Source of the DNA: Hanstruepera flava
GTDB taxonomy: Bacteria; Bacteroidota; Bacteroidia; Flavobacteriales; Flavobacteriaceae
Reading direction: 5' to 3'
DNA length: 64,000 nucleotides
NCBI RefSeq assembly: GCF_023634025.1
Contig: NZ_JALJCW010000003.1
Location: 124,001 to 188,000, forward strand
How positions within the stretch are numbered: the first letter of the stretch is position 1; every line of letters starts with the position of its first letter. Of this stretch, positions 31,042-43,107 are shown one piece after another. Made by a program: the position numbers and the translations under genes. The notes under the pieces were generated by a model. It was not told where the DNA came from and did no database searches. It saw nothing but the letters and a program-made list of their open reading frames with translations.

Positions 31042-32274
31042 TTATTCAGATACTTTAATTCCAAGGGTATTCATGTCATCCCAAAAGCTTGGGTAAGATT
31101 TAGAAACCACAGCAGCATCATTAATATTAATATCAGTTTTTAAGGCTAAAGGAGCAAAAGCCATTGCCATTCTATGGTCGTTATAAGTATCTATAAATAC
31201 ATTGCTTTTTATGGGTTTTGTAGAATGCAATAGTAAACTAGACTCGTTAGCATTTACATTTGCCCCGAGTTTTTCCAGTTCAGTTTTTAAAGCTAGTAGC
31301 CTATCGGTTTCTTTAATTTTTAATGTATGTAGTCCTGTTAGTTCACAGCTCAAACCTAAACCAAAACAAGTTACAGCAATGGTTTGTGCTATGTCTGGTG
31401 CGTCAGACAAATCCAATACGATTCGCGATGTATTATCAATATTCGCAACCTTACGAAGAACAAGTTTGTTGTTTTTGATGTTAGAAACCACTCCAAAGTG
31501 TTCATATATTTTTGTTAGTCGAGAATCACCTTGAAGACTATTTTGCCTATAGGATATCAACGCAACTTGAGCATTAATCTCACTTAAAGCTATTAAACTG
31601 AAATAGTATGATGCTGATGACCAATCACTTTCTACAGTAATTAATGTATCCTCAATTTTTGATTTTGGTTTAACAATTATTGTATTGTTTGAAAATAAGG
31701 TTTCAATTCCCAATTGGTCAAGCAGGCTCAATGTCATCTTTATATATGGGACTGATGTTATCTTACCTTCTAACGTTAGTTCAATACCGTTTTTTAATTG
31801 TGATCCTATTAGCAATAATGCCGAAATGTACTGACTACTAACATTGGCCTGGAGGTTTACTTGACGTTTTGTTAATGCTTTACCATTAATTCTTAAAGGT
31901 GGAAAGCCAATATTTTCTAAATAAGAAATATCTGCGCCTAATTGAACTAAAGCATCAACCAATATCTTTATTGGGCGTTCTTTCATTCTTGAAGAACCAG
32001 TCAGAACAACCTCTTGCCCTTGTTGCGTTGAAAAGTATGCGGTTAAAAAACGCATGGCTGTGCCTGCATGATGCACATCAACCTCTTTAGGGTTTTTAAC
32101 ACCTAGAGCCTTTTGCATGACTTTGGAATCATCTGAATTTGATAGATTATTAATTTTCAGATTTGGGAATAAAGCCTGTAGCAACAACAATCTATTAGAT
32201 TCACTTTTAGAACCCGTTATTGCAATTGTAGTATCAAGATTTGACAGTTCTGATTTTTGAAGCTTTATAGTCAT
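31042..32274 (-). CDS. aroA: 3-phosphoshikimate 1-carboxyvinyltransferase (EPSP synthase)
   Basis: AroA joins phosphoenolpyruvate to shikimate-3-phosphate, the sixth shikimate-pathway step. The 410-residue protein shows GSKSESNRLL near the N-terminus (substrate-binding Lys-Ser), HHAGTAMRFLTA, SRMKERP, SSQYISALLL, and in the C-terminal half LSDAPDIAQT and KETDRL; DTYNDHRMAMA follows. The usual NAGT motif is HAGT, as in class II-like enzymes of Bacteroidota. It ends the long minus-strand run led by pheA, 5 bases after mazG. Confidence 0.93.
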   Translation of the reverse strand: MTIKLQKSELSNLDTTIAITGSKSESNRLLLLQALFPNLKINNLSNSDDSKVMQKALGVKNPKEVDVHHAGTAMRFLTAYFSTQQGQEVVLTGSSRMKERPIKILVDALVQLGADISYLENIGFPPLRINGKALTKRQVNLQANVSSQYISALLLIGSQLKNGIELTLEGKITSVPYIKMTLSLLDQLGIETLFSNNTIIVKPKSKIEDTLITVESDWSSASYYFSLIALSEINAQVALISYRQNSLQGDSRLTKIYEHFGVVSNIKNNKLVLRKVANIDNTSRIVLDLSDAPDIAQTIAVTCFGLGLSCELTGLHTLKIKETDRLLALKTELEKLGANVNANESSLLLHSTKPIKSNVFIDTYNDHRMAMAFAPLALKTDININDAAVVSKSYPSFWDDMNTLGIKVSE

Positions 32275-38019: not shown

Positions 38020-39105
38020 CTAATTAGCATTTATAATCTTCTCTTGATGATTTATAGATTCTTGATGCACCGCCTTAAAAACCCGCAAAATAAATTCTTC
38101 GCTCAAATTCTTTTCTTCACCTTGAAGAATCATTTTACCCAATATTTCATTCCATCGCTTTGTTTGCAATACAGCAACATTAAATTCTTTTTTAAGTGTA
38201 CCTATATCATCAGCAACTTTCATACGTTTACCTAGCATTTCAATAAGCTGGTGGTCTATCACATCTATCTGCGTACGAAGTGTATTAATTTTATTTTTAA
38301 ACTCTGCCGCTTCACCTGTTTCCTTTCTAATTTTTAAATCTTCCATAAACTGGATAAGGGTTTCAGGAGTAATTTGTTGTGCTGCATCACTCCAAGCATT
38401 ATCAGGATCAAAATGTGTTTCAACCATTAAACCATCATAGTTTAAATCTAATGCTGTTTGGCATAAATCAAAAATGATATCGCGCTTTCCTGCAATATGT
38501 GAAGGATCCAAAATCAAAGGTAAATCTTGAAACCTATTTTGCAAATCGATGGGCAATTGCCATTCTGGATTATTTCTATATCGTGTTTTTTCATAAGTTG
38601 AAAAGCCTCTATGAATAACGCCTAAATTCTTAATGTTTGCGGTATGCAAACGCTCTACGGCTCCGAGCCATAAAGCCAAATCTGGATTAACCGGGTTTTT
38701 TACCAAAACAGGTTTATCAGTCCCTTTTAAAGCTTCGGCTATTTCCTGTACAATAAAAGGGCTTACCGTTGTTCGGGCACCAATCCACAATACATCTACA
38801 TCGTGCTGCAAAGCTAATTCCACATGATTGGCATTAGCTACTTCTGTAGAAATAAGCATTCCTGTTTCCTCTTTGGCTTTTTGCAACCACTTTAATCCTA
38901 GAGCACCCACGCCTTCAAAATTTCCTGGTCTTGTTCTAGGTTTCCAAATACCAGCTCGTAAAACAGTTGCATCGCTATCTTTTAATTGATGTGCAATTTT
39001 TAGTACTTGTGCTTCTGTTTCTGCACTACAAGGACCAGCAATGACCAATGGGTGACTTAACCCAAAGTTATCTAGCCAATTTCTTAACTCTTTCTTGTTT
39101 TTCAT
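38020..39105 (-). CDS. Bifunctional DAHP synthase / chorismate mutase (type II)
   Basis: A fusion that feeds and uses chorismate. Residues 1 to about 265 are a DAHP synthase (KDPA/KdsA-like class: VIAGPCSAET, LRAGIWKPRTRP, PVLVKNP, HRGFSTY, DPSHIAGKR), condensing PEP and erythrose-4-phosphate. Residues about 270-361 are an AroQ-type all-alpha chorismate mutase (LRTQIDVIDHQLIEMLGKRM). The frame extends to 39123, but the ATG at 39105 (MKNKKELRNWL) matches the family start and avoids overlap with tyrA. With pheA, tyrA and the aminotransferase it makes a full Phe/Tyr branch. Confidence 0.92.
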   Translation of the reverse strand: MKNKKELRNWLDNFGLSHPLVIAGPCSAETEAQVLKIAHQLKDSDATVLRAGIWKPRTRPGNFEGVGALGLKWLQKAKEETGMLISTEVANANHVELALQHDVDVLWIGARTTVSPFIVQEIAEALKGTDKPVLVKNPVNPDLALWLGAVERLHTANIKNLGVIHRGFSTYEKTRYRNNPEWQLPIDLQNRFQDLPLILDPSHIAGKRDIIFDLCQTALDLNYDGLMVETHFDPDNAWSDAAQQITPETLIQFMEDLKIRKETGEAAEFKNKINTLRTQIDVIDHQLIEMLGKRMKVADDIGTLKKEFNVAVLQTKRWNEILGKMILQGEEKNLSEEFILRVFKAVHQESINHQEKIINAN

Positions 39106-39115
39106 ATTCTTATTA

Positions 39116-39967
39116 TTAAGCAATTCCGTTTAATATATCTTTTATGTGATTGGTATTGGCCATTTCACTATGAATTTCATCAAAATCATCATTTTCCAAA
39201 TGCGTCTTAAATGCTTTTAGATTTTGAATGTACTCCTCTAGGGTTTCAATCACATTGGTTTTGTTTTGTTTAAAAATTGGCGTCCACATATCTGGTGAAC
39301 TTTTGGCCAATCGAACTGTTGATGCAAAACCACTTCCAGCCATATCAAAAATATCACGTTCGTTTTTCTCCTTTTCTATAACCGTTTTTCCAAGCATAAA
39401 GGAACTTATATGCGACAAATGTGATACATAAGCAATGTGCTTGTCATGCGCTTCAGGGTTCATATAGCGAATGCGCATTCCCATAATTTTAAATATAGTT
39501 AAAGCACGTTCCTGAAGCTTGAACGCTGTTTTTTCTATTTCACAAATTATATTGGTCTTGCCTTTAAATAAACCCAATAAAGCAGCATCTGGTCCCGAAA
39601 ATTCTGTACCTGCTATAGGATGCGTTGCCAAAAAATTTCTGCGTTTAGGATGATTTTCAACAGCTTTGCAAATTTCAACTTTTGTCGATCCAGATTCCAT
39701 AACCAAAGCATCATCGTTAACTAAGTCTAATACTTTAGGCAAAAGTTCTACAGCTGCATCAACCGGAATTGAAAGGATAACACTATCTGCTTGTCTTAAA
39801 TCGTCCCATTCTGCCTTAAAGTCAATTATTCCTAGCTTTACAGCTTTTTGTAAATGTTCATCATTGGTATCTATTCCATAAATAGAAATATCAGGATTTA
39901 AGTGTTTAATATCTTTGGCAATACTGCCGCCAATTAAACCAACTCCAATAATATATATGTTTTTCAT
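39116..39967 (-). CDS. tyrA: Prephenate dehydrogenase
   Basis: TyrA converts prephenate to 4-hydroxyphenylpyruvate for Tyr synthesis. The 283-residue protein has the N-terminal Rossmann motif GVGLIGGSIA (8-17), catalytic-region ATHPIAGTEFSGP (His in THPIAG), and the helical C-terminal domain with YVSHLSHI and GSGFASTVRLAKSSPDMW. No ACT domain is present. It follows the aminotransferase gene with a 3-base gap. Confidence 0.94.
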   Translation of the reverse strand: MKNIYIIGVGLIGGSIAKDIKHLNPDISIYGIDTNDEHLQKAVKLGIIDFKAEWDDLRQADSVILSIPVDAAVELLPKVLDLVNDDALVMESGSTKVEICKAVENHPKRRNFLATHPIAGTEFSGPDAALLGLFKGKTNIICEIEKTAFKLQERALTIFKIMGMRIRYMNPEAHDKHIAYVSHLSHISSFMLGKTVIEKEKNERDIFDMAGSGFASTVRLAKSSPDMWTPIFKQNKTNVIETLEEYIQNLKAFKTHLENDDFDEIHSEMANTNHIKDILNGIA

Positions 39968-39970
39968 AGT

Positions 39971-41113
39971 CTAAATTCTTGCAATAGCTTCTTCAATATC
40001 TTCAACAGTTGCACATAATGAAAAGCGCACATAGCCTTCACCATTACTACCAAATATAGTTCCTGGTGCAATAAAAATGTCATTCTCCTTTAATAGTAAA
40101 TCAATAAACTCTTCCGATTTTATAAAAGGTGGCAACTTGGCCCAAACAAACATTCCCGATGCATTTTTATTGTACGTACAATTTAAGGCATCGGCCAGTT
40201 TCCAGATTAGCTCTCGACGTTGCTTATAAACCTGATTTAAGCTAACATACCATAGCTTTGAACAATTTAAAGCTTCAATAGCAGCTTTTTGAACACCGTA
40301 AAGCATACCTGAATCCATGTTGCTTTTCACTTTCAAAATGGCATTAATAAATTCTGATTTTCCTAAAACCATCCCAACGCGCCATCCTGCCATATTAAAT
40401 GTTTTACTCAAGCTATTAAGTTCCAAACACACGTCTTTAGCTCCCGAAACCTGGAATATGCTTTTAGGTTCTGTGTTTAAAATAAAACTATAAGGATTAT
40501 CATTAACCAATAAAATATTATGCCGCTTGGCAAAAGACACCAACCTTGTAAAAAAAGCATCACTGGCTTTTGCTCCTGTTGGCATATGCGGATAATTTAT
40601 CCACATAAGTTTTACTTGTGATAAATCTTGCTTTTCTATAAGTTCTAAATCTGGTAACCAATCATTTTCTTCCGTTAAACTATATAAAATAGGTTTTGCA
40701 CCTACCAACTTTGTAACTGATGTGTAAGTGGGATATCCTGGATTGGGAATTAAAACTTGATCGCCTTCATTTAAAAACGCCATGGAAATATGCATAATAC
40801 CTTCCTTACTTCCCATTAATGGTAACACCTCTGTTGACGGACTTAAATACACATTATATTGTTCTCTGTAAAAGGAAACCATGCCTTCGCGTAACTCTGG
40901 TAAACCTTGATAACTTTGATACTGATTGGCTTTAGGGTTTACAAAGCTTTCGGTTAATGCCGAAATAACTTTTTGTGGTGGACTTAAATCTGGGCTGCCA
41001 ATTCCTAAATTAATAACTGGCTTTCCATTTGCCATTAGCAGCCTAACCTCTCTTAATTTTTTAGAAAAGTAGTACTCCTCAACCGTTCGTAATCGATTTG
41101 CTAATTCAATCAT
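39971..41113 (-). CDS. PLP-dependent class I/II aminotransferase of the aromatic operon
   Basis: A 380-residue fold-type I aminotransferase with the PLP Lys in LNSLSKTFNMAGWRVG, plus NPGYPTYTSV and the PLP-phosphate-binding segment LPLMGSKEGI. Its place between pheA and tyrA, with a 4-base overlap with pheA, indicates transamination of phenylpyruvate and 4-hydroxyphenylpyruvate or of prephenate; which one cannot be decided from sequence. Confidence 0.88.
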   Translation of the reverse strand: MIELANRLRTVEEYYFSKKLREVRLLMANGKPVINLGIGSPDLSPPQKVISALTESFVNPKANQYQSYQGLPELREGMVSFYREQYNVYLSPSTEVLPLMGSKEGIMHISMAFLNEGDQVLIPNPGYPTYTSVTKLVGAKPILYSLTEENDWLPDLELIEKQDLSQVKLMWINYPHMPTGAKASDAFFTRLVSFAKRHNILLVNDNPYSFILNTEPKSIFQVSGAKDVCLELNSLSKTFNMAGWRVGMVLGKSEFINAILKVKSNMDSGMLYGVQKAAIEALNCSKLWYVSLNQVYKQRRELIWKLADALNCTYNKNASGMFVWAKLPPFIKSEEFIDLLLKENDIFIAPGTIFGSNGEGYVRFSLCATVEDIEEAIARI

Positions 41114-41937
41114 GATCTTGCTTGTTTATACTGCCCTAATACCTTAAAATCTTCTGCCATAATCTTTATAATGGATTGTGCTTTTTCAAAATCGTTGTAA
41201 TCGTTAAAAGTAACATCAACAAAAAAGGCATATTTCCAAGGTGTTTCAATTTTTGGCAACGATTGTATTTTTGTTAAGTTTAATTTACAATCGCTCATAA
41301 CATTTAATATAGTAGCCAAACTCCCACGTTTATGCTCTAGTTGAAATTTTATAGATGCCTTATTTATTTCCTCCATCGGTATTTCATGATTCTCACGTTT
41401 TACGATAACAAAGCGAGTTTCATTATGCTTAATAGTCTGAATGCTTCTTGCCATTATGTTAAGTTCAAACAAATTGGCTGCTAGATAACTCCCAATAGCT
41501 GCTACTCCTTTTAATTGATTTTGTTGAATACGTTTGGCCACTTCGGCAGTGTCCTTATCTTCAACCAACTTAATATGCGGATATTGTTTTAAAAACGCCT
41601 TGCATTGCAACAATGCCATAGGATGAGAACACACCTCATTAATATCTTCAATGGATTGCCCTGGTAATGCCATGAGATGGTGCTGAATATCCAAATAATA
41701 TTCGCCAACTATATGCAGATTATGTCCATCAATCAAAGCATAATTGGGTATTATTGAGCCTGCAATAGAATTCTCGATAGCCATAACCACTGCATCAGCT
41801 TGTCCAGACAACAAGGTGTCTACTGCTTTATCGAAAGACAAACATTCGTTTAAAACAACGGTATCACCAAAATAGTTTTTGGCAACTATATGATGGAATG
41901 ACCCTTGTACTCCTTGTATGGCAACAGATTTTATCAT
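41110..41937 (-). CDS. pheA: Prephenate dehydratase with C-terminal ACT domain
   Basis: PheA converts prephenate to phenylpyruvate for Phe synthesis. From the ATG at 41937 it has 275 residues; the frame extends two codons further to a TTG, which is not preferred. The catalytic domain shows VAIQGVQGSFHH, ENSIAGSI, CSHPMALLQC and ETRFVIV (Thr-Arg-Phe). The ACT domain has KRGSLATILNVM, but the Phe-binding ESRP motif is replaced by QSLP (KIQSLPKI). The gene sits four bases after a terminator hairpin preceded by an aromatic leader ORF, so attenuation is likely. Confidence 0.95.
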   Translation of the reverse strand: MIKSVAIQGVQGSFHHIVAKNYFGDTVVLNECLSFDKAVDTLLSGQADAVVMAIENSIAGSIIPNYALIDGHNLHIVGEYYLDIQHHLMALPGQSIEDINEVCSHPMALLQCKAFLKQYPHIKLVEDKDTAEVAKRIQQNQLKGVAAIGSYLAANLFELNIMARSIQTIKHNETRFVIVKRENHEIPMEEINKASIKFQLEHKRGSLATILNVMSDCKLNLTKIQSLPKIETPWKYAFFVDVTFNDYNDFEKAQSIIKIMAEDFKVLGQYKQARS

Positions 41938-41941
41938 AAAC

Positions 41942-41974
41942 AAAAAAAAGTCTCGATTATTAACCGAGACTTTT
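41942..41974 (-). terminator. Attenuator terminator hairpin just upstream of pheA
   Basis: On the minus strand a perfect 10-bp stem (41965-41974 with 41946-41955), 9-base loop and eight T (41942-41949, partly within the stem) ends four bases before the pheA ATG. The stem core AGTCTCG/CGAGACT is also complementary to CGAGACT inside the leader ORF (42010-42016), which provides a competing antiterminator. The U-run occupies the ribosome-binding zone, so the hairpin may also block translation. Confidence 0.85.
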
Positions 41975-41997
41975 ATCTAATATATTTTTAATTAAAA

Positions 41998-42078
41998 TTA
42001 CATATACGCAGTCTCGTTTCTTTTACTAAAAAAGAAATAAAACCAGTTATAATATGTAAAATTTGTACTTGCTTTCAT
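41998..42078 (-). CDS. Aromatic-rich leader peptide of the phe/tyr operon (26 residues)
   Basis: A short ORF, ATG at 42076-42078 to TAA at 41998-42000, encodes 26 residues containing FTYYNWFYFFF: five Phe, four Tyr and one Trp in total. It sits between a consensus promoter and a terminator in front of pheA, as in pheL-type leaders. Eleven bases after the last Phe codon of the run lies CGAGACT (42010-42016), which pairs with the first arm of the terminator. Stalling on scarce Phe/Tyr-tRNA would leave this segment free to form the antiterminator; a ribosome reaching the stop codon would cover it. Confidence 0.85.
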   Translation of the reverse strand: MKASTNFTYYNWFYFFFSKRNETAYM

Positions 42079-42089
42079 AATTACAAGGG

Positions 42090-42119
42090 CTAAAGTAATT
42101 AATAAATTGAAAAAACAAA
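42090..42119 (-). promoter_or_regulatory. Promoter of the leader-pheA operon
   Basis: On the minus strand TTTG (42116-42119), an 18-base spacer, then TACTTTAG (42090-42097), one mismatch from TAnnTTTG. The implied transcript starts only a few bases before the leader ATG. Confidence 0.6.
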
Positions 42120-42182
42120 ATCTTTTTTGGTTGTTTTAACATTATAACGTTTTCGTAAAGCAAATCCTTTAAAAATAATAGT

Positions 42183-42210: not shown

Positions 42211-43107
42211 ATGTCTATAAAAGTTGAAAACCTCACTAAACTTTACGGAACTCAAAAGGCATTAAACAATATATCTTTTGACGTTAAAAAACCAGAAATT
42301 GTTGGTTTTTTAGGTCCTAATGGCGCTGGTAAGTCTACTATGATGAAGATACTAACCACGTTTATTGAAGCTACAGATGGTAAAGCACTAGTTAACAGTT
42401 TTGATGTTGACTCTCAAAAGCAGGACGTACAAAAAAGTGTAGGGTATTTGCCAGAACATAACCCGTTGTATTTAGACCAATATGTTAGAGAGTATTTAGC
42501 TTTTAATGCCCAAGTTTATGGTGTTTCAAAACATAGAATCCAAGAGGTTATTGAATTGACTGGCTTAACACCAGAAGCCCATAAAAAAATTGGTCAACTA
42601 TCCAAAGGTTATAGACAGCGTGTTGGACTAGCCAATGCCTTACTACATAATCCTGAAGTCTTGATTCTAGATGAACCTACAACAGGATTAGATCCAAATC
42701 AGTTAATTGATATTCGAAAATTGATTAAGGATTTAGGACAAGATAAAACCGTGTTCCTTTCCACACATATTATGCAAGAAGTTGAAGCTATGTGCGATAG
42801 GGTTATTATTATCAATAAAGGTGAAATTGTTGCGAATAAGACACTCAAGGAATTACGAGATGACAAAGAGCAAGTTGTGGTAGTGGAATTTGATTATCGT
42901 GTTGAAGACGCTTTTCTTTTAAAATTACCTAAAGTGAAACAGGTAACAAACACTTACGATTTTGTTTATGAAATAACTTTCAATACTACCGAAGACATGC
43001 GTTCTCATGTATTTGATTTTGCCCATGACAATCAGTTAAAGATTCTTCAACTGAATCAAAAAAATGCTAGCTTGGAAAGTTTGTTTAGGGAGTTGACTTC
43101 TAATTAG
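42211..43107 (+). CDS. gldA: Gliding motility ABC transporter ATP-binding protein GldA
   Basis: The ATPase of the GldA-GldF-GldG ABC exporter linked to gliding. The 298-residue protein has Walker A GPNGAGKS (35-42), signature LSKGYRQRVGLA, Walker B VLILDEPTTGLD and the switch His in STHIMQE. The C-terminal extension after residue 220 matches GldA length. gldF and gldG are not in the window. It converges with the DUF2807 gene with a single-base gap. Confidence 0.92.
   Translation: MSIKVENLTKLYGTQKALNNISFDVKKPEIVGFLGPNGAGKSTMMKILTTFIEATDGKALVNSFDVDSQKQDVQKSVGYLPEHNPLYLDQYVREYLAFNAQVYGVSKHRIQEVIELTGLTPEAHKKIGQLSKGYRQRVGLANALLHNPEVLILDEPTTGLDPNQLIDIRKLIKDLGQDKTVFLSTHIMQEVEAMCDRVIIINKGEIVANKTLKELRDDKEQVVVVEFDYRVEDAFLLKLPKVKQVTNTYDFVYEITFNTTEDMRSHVFDFAHDNQLKILQLNQKNASLESLFRELTSN

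Follow-up and report, generated by a model that had tools for sequence, protein, structure and literature searches.

Background

Leader-peptide attenuation is textbook knowledge in enterobacteria, and in the E. coli attenuator an upstream segment 1 pairs with segment 2. In E. coli K-12, the Phe-rich leader pheL stands directly before pheA with an intrinsic terminator between them, an arrangement that is likewise found at the locus described here. According to the passage of a 2010 survey that deals with this point, no leader-peptide system had been shown outside Proteobacteria and Actinobacteria before the survey's own case in Firmicutes (PMC2965389). The described system nearest in kind is Bacteroid-trp (RF01692), which is given in Table 1 of PMC2864571. 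It comes from the same phylum and works on the same principle, with tandem Trp codons and a terminator, but it belongs to a different operon and differs in codons and in sequence, and the pheA element did not match its model.

The closest report concerns Flavobacterium psychrophilum, where a 2021 study described conserved, structured elements in front of pheA and hisG that also occur in other genera of Flavobacteriaceae and have no Rfam hit, together with clues to leader-peptide attenuation upstream of amino-acid operons (PMC9723704). Judged from its description, the F. psychrophilum pheA element is probably the same as the one analysed here; since it had already been reported as a structured element, it had been noticed before and the idea is not wholly new. 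The section of that paper on the elements does not describe how the pheA element is built, which segments it has or how it works, and part of the anatomy may already be in print in its supplement. In the other literature covered, which took in hardly any subscription journals, we found no fuller account. Compared with that section, what is new here is the anatomy of the segments, the reach of the element beyond the family and the apparent lack of a detectable protector segment.

The element was also compared with known RNA families. A search of the window, that is, the whole stretch of 64,000 nucleotides that was analysed, against Rfam release 15 (4227 models) gave no match at or above the gathering score at the pheA element, whether to the Phe, Trp or His leaders or to Bacteroid-trp, and a permissive search of 701 bases around the element gave none at or above that score. 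Membership of Trp_leader (RF00513) was rejected (21.4 bits, E = 0.09, against a gathering score of 41), and the resemblance is most likely a generic likeness among leader-terminators. In the same comparison, nine other pheA loci and the hisG locus of the own genome gave no match; only two trpE loci matched.

Anatomy of the pheA leader and its operon

The features of the locus are listed in Table 1. The first-pass annotation of this DNA had described a leader ORF, a perfect 10-bp terminator and a duplicated CGAGACT before pheA, and all of its coordinates proved exact in the window. The promoter-like pair of motifs consists of what we take to be the -33 and -7 promoter elements of the Bacteroidota type. 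The complementarity between leader and segment 3 at this locus exceeds that of dinucleotide shuffles (p = 0.007).

Table 1 Features of the pheA leader locus and its neighbours in the window
Feature	Position	Strand	Remarks
Promoter-like pair, TTTTG (42116-42120) and TACTTTAG (42090-42097)	42090..42120	-	Motif, predicted
Leader ORF, 26 codons including stop, MKASTNFTYYNWFYFFFSKRNETAYM	41998..42078	-	ATG at 42078; stop codon ends at 41998; 10 F/Y/W residues
Aromatic run F T Y Y N W F Y F F F, putative ribosome stall site	42028..42060	-	
Segment 2, CGAGACT, antiterminator 5' arm, core GAGRY	42010..42016	-	Within leader ORF; 11 bases past last Phe codon
Segment 3, AGTCTCG, terminator 5' arm	41965..41971	-	Partner is segment 2 or segment 4
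Segment 4, CGAGACT, terminator 3' arm	41949..41955	-	
Predicted intrinsic terminator, perfect 10-bp hairpin and U-run	41942..41974	-	From sequence; arms AAAAGTCTCG (41974-41965) and CGAGACTTTT (41955-41946); 8 T (41949-41942), four inside the stem
pheA, prephenate dehydratase	41110..41937	-	ATG at 41937, 4 bases 3' of the T-run; PF00800 E=1.6e-55; ACT-domain match weak, below cut-off
Class I/II aminotransferase	39971..41113	-	4-base overlap with pheA
tyrA, prephenate dehydrogenase	39116..39967	-	NF006307 above cut-off
aroFQ, DAHP synthase / chorismate mutase fusion	38020..39105	-	PF00793 and PF01817
gldA, divergent upstream gene	42211-43107	+	

The genes from pheA to aroFQ overlap their neighbours or lie only a few bases from them, and their products serve the synthesis of Phe and Tyr; we therefore regard this set as a Phe/Tyr operon. 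Close behind aroFQ come RsgA and a D-aminoacyl-tRNA deacylase, and after these two DUF3857 proteins. Beyond a gap of about 330 bases, an ORF like EPSP synthase (31042-32274, identified by eye) lies on the same strand. No terminator-like sites were found in the gaps scanned between the operon genes and the genes downstream. The first-pass annotation had thought that the operon might reach down to aroA, and any such reach beyond aroFQ is conjectural.

A hairpin followed by a T-run means little in itself, as 6 such sites were observed in 12.3 kb against 5.7 expected from shuffles. This is what would be seen if the hairpin simply ended some unrelated transcript from upstream, with the leader ORF and the repeat as coincidences. 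We give that explanation almost no credence: the element stands before pheA in 79 of the best 80 of 239 related loci, and in the last one the contig ends inside it. Moreover, gldA upstream is divergent, in the window and in 69 of the 72 loci counted among the same best 80 of 239, and hence no upstream transcript needs an end here.

Conservation among close relatives

The relatives used for comparison were the best 80 of 239 found by a protein search with pheA, most of them titled Flavobacteriaceae. The locus cut off by its contig end (L005) shows only segments 2 and 3 before the end. Conserved aromatic codons, which the first-pass annotation had named as a check, are present in all 79 of the loci that reach that far. 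A script recognised the aromatic leader in 78 of 81 loci (the window and the best 80 of 239), and two more were recognised by eye (L019 and L072, both with the segments and the aromatic codons). The alignment used below thus contains 78 leaders, namely the window and 77 of the best 80 of 239, with L005, L019 and L072 absent; pair counts refer to its 76 distinct rows. The gene order pheA-aminotransferase-tyrA-aroFQ is kept in 77/77 of those of the best 80 of 239 loci that have more than 4 kb downstream.

As expected of a ribosome-mediated attenuator, the short ORF is rich in codons for the end products of the operon. Over the 78 leaders the codon totals are 347 for Phe, 300 for Tyr and 69 for Trp, Tyr being nearly equal to Phe, unlike in E. 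coli pheL. A predicted intrinsic terminator, the second feature of such an attenuator, lies between the leader and the first gene in the 78-leader set. Segment 3 reads GTCTCG in all 78 aligned leaders, and segments 2 and 4 vary from A to G or from C to T while still pairing with segment 3; only the outermost base of segment 2 departs from this. Among the 76 distinct rows, 63 have a pair at the outer C of segment 2 and just 13 at its outer T; the repeat of 7 nt pointed out in the first-pass annotation is exact in the window, but at this full length it is partly local to it. The letters of the segments in the 78 rows are in part a product of the finder, which used the motifs GAG[AG][CT], [AG]TCTC or GCCTC, and a loose motif for segment 4, and the independent evidence is the fixed spacing and the alignment.

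According to the script, segment 2 starts 12 nt past the last aromatic codon in 74 of the 78 leaders. On reading the four exceptions, the distance was found to be 12 in L013 and L033 and 11 in L055, and in L061 it had been measured from an extra Tyr codon. In eight of the 78 leaders the stop codon comes before segment 2, which nevertheless lies at 12 nt in every one of them. This early stop requires 7 changes on the pheA protein tree, of which at least 5 are forced by well-supported branches. In L055, a frameshift alters the end of the peptide and segment 2 is kept. Since segment 2 stays in place when it is outside the ORF or behind a frameshift, selection appears to act on the RNA rather than on the peptide.

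The order TYYNWFYFFF is strongly kept in the 78 close relatives, as would also be the case if the nascent peptide arrested the ribosome in the manner of TnaC or Erm leaders and itself sensed Phe and Tyr, codon starvation playing no part. Farther out, however, the composition is kept and the order is not (FNGFYFYFFF, TYYFGYFYYF, FFFFFYYFYF and others), and His-rich and Trp-rich leaders share the same plan. We consider peptide arrest most improbable and prefer stalling at the aromatic codons.

Upstream of the leaders, the box TA[ACT][AT]TTAGC was found in 76/77 leaders, compared with 0.8% in single-base shuffles, and TTTG or TTTC lies 14-28 nt upstream of this box in 74 leaders. The leader ATG is at most 20 nt from the box in 70/76, and for this reason the 5' untranslated region of the leader is probably very short. 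A score for the -7 box alone was reached by 67% of shuffles and was dropped as uninformative, the stricter motif being used in its place.

Throughout the 76 distinct rows (alignment A1, columns 65 and 145), segment 2 has A opposite the second U of segment 3, while the equivalent position in segment 4 carries G in 41 rows and A in 35, a wobble tolerated in the terminator and not in segment 2. In the wider family, L272 looks like an exception to this rule.

Competing hairpins and covariation

We predicted the folding of the 78 leaders with RNA that begins at segment 2. When the RNA extends through segment 3 and segment 2 is exposed, the 2:3 fold is predicted in 78/78. With stepwise lengthening, 2:3 remains the minimum-energy fold in all 78 until 2 nt short of the complete segment-4 core. 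When this core is just complete the folds split 19 to 59, and from 2 nt beyond it 3:4 wins in 75/78. The predicted 2:3 antiterminator and the 3:4 terminator are thus mutually exclusive, as they are in known attenuators. Since the finished RNA favours the terminator (75/78), antitermination would depend on the order of synthesis, and the balance of predicted folds is that expected for a switch set by this order and by the position of the ribosome.

The cells of segments 3 and 4 form standard pairs in 100% of the 76 distinct rows. The first-pass annotation had called for compensatory changes among relatives. None was found as a double change in the 78-leader alignment, where all variation is G-U wobble, whereas slid controls on this alignment show a few double changes by chance; in more distant Bacteroidia, the sequences of all three segments are replaced. 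RNAalifold of the region of segments 2 and 3 returned only the 5-bp 2:3 stem. A conserved-looking A/U hairpin between the two segments was not recovered by it, and no claim is made for this hairpin.

As the alignment showed only wobble, support from covariation was drawn from more distant sequences. In 39 genes of the class and order samples described below, chosen for at least 5 aromatics in 12 residues and a terminator found, the complementarity between the leader and segment 3 plus loop was compared with dinucleotide shuffles. It reached p<=0.05 in 30/39 and p<=0.01 in 18/39, compared with about 2 and about 0.4 expected by chance, and p was above 0.05 in 9/39. These 39 include the window locus (L104), the near-identical L101 and L105, the related L214 and L218, and L209, which is probably a false leader; L103, L210, L213 and L217, in which no terminator was found, were left out. 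Compared with CGAGACT/AGTCTCG in the window, segments 2 and 3 elsewhere read, for example, TCAGGATT/AATCCTGA, GCCGGGACT/AGTCCCGGC, GGCGGGA/TCCCGCC and AACGAGG/CCTCGTT. A separate table of such pairs is complementary by the design of the search and serves as illustration only, the test being the shuffle control. Since the complementarity beats shuffles while the sequences differ, the segments seem to change together. The triple complementarity is kept, as the first-pass annotation had anticipated, with all three segments replaced in sequence in the more distant Bacteroidia.

A similar picture was obtained by eye from 18 more distant leaders of the family, in which segment 3 is GTCCCG in 10, GTCTCG in 4 and another arm in 4. 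Segment 2 of the 10 leaders with GTCCCG is CGGGAC in 9 and TGGGAC in 1, compared with CGAGAC in the window. Matching within the family is imperfect in two cases: L272 combines GTCTCG with a segment 2 that resembles GGGAC (G-U), and in L265 CGGGAC faces GTCCTG.

The terminator had also been said to overlie the ribosome-entry zone of pheA. This is true of the window and is not general, for the first arm of the hairpin lies at most 43 nt from the start of the pheA match in the window and 28 others of the 78 (29/78). In these leaders the hairpin could act mainly on translation, hiding the pheA start until translation of the leader, or re-initiation, opens it. In the other 49 leaders the distance is greater and reaches as much as 443 nt, but U-run and pairing are kept all the same, and the unbroken pairing of segments 3 and 4 noted above also speaks against control of this kind, which we consider very unlikely to be the main function.

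Judged on sequence conservation, the leader ORF, its codons rich in Phe, Tyr and Trp, the predicted terminator and the complementarity shared by segments 2, 3 and 4 are all conserved. The comparative data support the reading given in the first-pass annotation, and we conclude that the pheA leader is very probably a ribosome-mediated transcription attenuator of the Phe/Tyr operon.

Search for a protector segment

It had been claimed from the window alone that only three segments are needed. This claim held up when a duplex test for an upstream complement to segment 2 was applied: p<=0.05 was obtained in 2/78 Flavobacteriaceae leaders, which is about the chance level, and in 5/39 of the class and order leaders, where about 2 are expected. 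The mean pairing energy of segment 2 is -3.7 kcal/mol with upstream RNA, compared with -9.5 kcal/mol with segment 3. The minimum-energy fold of E. coli pheL RNA, in contrast, has a long leader hairpin. By its sequence, the element is one that would work like the E. coli phe attenuator but that seems, as tested, to have no segment 1 pairing with segment 2, the feature by which the four-segment type is defined.

A rival reading is a classical four-segment attenuator in which segment 1 was missed as weak or A/U-rich, and in which the untranslated leader would terminate as in E. coli trp and phe. The excess in the 39 leaders points in its direction, though these five include the related pair L214 and L218, and the power of the duplex test to reveal a segment 1 is unproven. 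Against it stand the chance-level result in Flavobacteriaceae, the weak upstream pairing and the comparison with pheL, and we hold a hidden segment 1 to be unlikely.

Distribution beyond close relatives

To pheA genes farther away we applied a strict leader test, which demands an ORF with at least 7 F/Y/W in 12 residues. The class sample comprised 50 of 52 pheA matches, including the window locus in its own genome (L104) and the family members L091, L094, L176, L182 and L192. An aromatic leader was found at 28/50 of these genes, and at 22/44 outside the own family; 22/50 failed the test, counting the partial loci L103 and L196 as negatives. The controls gave 1/50 on the reverse strand and 0/55 upstream of hisG or trpE. 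In the order sample (30 of 56 pheA matches fetched, 28 loci new), 4/28 genes had an aromatic leader, and outside the class the strict test found none in the 28 pheA genes sampled (30 of 129 places in 128 genomes fetched, 28 loci new).

In the same order, reduced genomes of about 0.6 Mb (family f80) and the larger family f2 keep pheA, and no strict aromatic leader was sampled in them, which suggests loss of the attenuator in these lineages.

A covariance model built from the 78 leaders matched 120/199 genomes of the family at E<=0.001, with a single match in 117 of the 120, and gave no match in 79/199. When 20 weak hits were fetched, 18 of them were found to precede pheA with an aromatic leader. 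The own genome has one copy of the element. Three genomes (G202, G471 and G560) have two matches each, which are equal in score in G471; the weak second matches in G202 and G560 were put down to chance, with neither pheA nor an aromatic leader alongside.

His and Trp leaders

The regions upstream of hisG and of trpE-family genes were surveyed in 31 genomes of Flavobacteriaceae, using the best upstream ORF per locus. This ORF contains at least 3 His at 24/25 hisG genes and WWW at 25/30 trpE-family loci. In 20/23 his leaders (2/25 were skipped, their codon motif being absent), a candidate segment of at least 6 nt, located past the His codons, is complementary to the arm or the loop of the terminator. 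In 14/27 trpE leaders (loci L144-L172, including L148), the best candidate antiterminator, which is GTGAA-like, would pair with the loop of the terminator instead of its 5' arm. The loop-pairing trpE leaders are possibly a different switch geometry within Bacteroid-trp. The trpE leader of the own genome is a member of this Rfam family (59.4 bits).

The own hisG locus (L135) has a His-rich leader, MNFIQLHHHFHTCTQAS, and the pair ACTCAAGCG/CGTTTGAGT joins it to both arm and loop of the terminator; the search of Rfam gave nothing there.

Proposed mechanism and its meaning

In the mechanism that we propose, RNA polymerase would initiate a few bases 5' of the leader AUG and a ribosome would load immediately. 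When Phe- or Tyr-tRNA is scarce, the ribosome would stall on the aromatic codons and leave segment 2, 12 nt past the last of them, exposed, so that it pairs with the newly made segment 3. Termination by segment 4 and the U-run would thereby be prevented, and the operon would be transcribed. With charged tRNAs, the ribosome would reach the stop codon, just after or before segment 2, and cover this segment. The footprint of a terminating ribosome would be large enough to do so with the stop codon on either side. The 3:4 hairpin would then form and transcription would stop before pheA.

The least certain step concerns a leader that is not translated. Because segment 1 seems to be absent, such a leader is expected on kinetic grounds to be read through, and abolishing leader translation would have the opposite outcome to that in E. 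coli. This prediction may prove wrong, because the terminator is the favoured fold of the complete RNA.

In most of the Flavobacteriaceae sampled, the operons for Phe/Tyr, for His and for Trp seem to be governed by leader-peptide logic of the same kind, and the switch for Phe/Tyr seems to extend to other families of Bacteroidia. Three-segment attenuators of phe and his operons, and perhaps the loop-pairing trp leaders, may be found throughout the class; they would have no protector or pause hairpin, a leader near the 5' end of the RNA would let the ribosome keep pace, and without translation the operon would be on. We put this forward tentatively, as a generalization nearly as apt to hold as to fail. 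If true, it would imply tight coordination of transcription and translation at Bacteroidia leaders, in a phylum that is not known to rely on Shine-Dalgarno sequences. The pheA leader could serve as a sequence-defined probe of whether ribosomes closely trail RNA polymerase in Bacteroidota. The element might also be entered as a new Rfam family and could aid annotation of the control of pheA operons.

Riboswitches elsewhere in the window

Two riboswitches of different classes were found back to back in the window. A SAM-I riboswitch (RF00162, 53345-53469, minus strand) precedes a gene for a methionine-synthesis-like PLP enzyme and a homoserine-dehydrogenase-like gene, and a SAM-II riboswitch (RF01726, 53596-53654, plus strand) precedes a SAM-synthetase-like gene, the genes being identified by eye.
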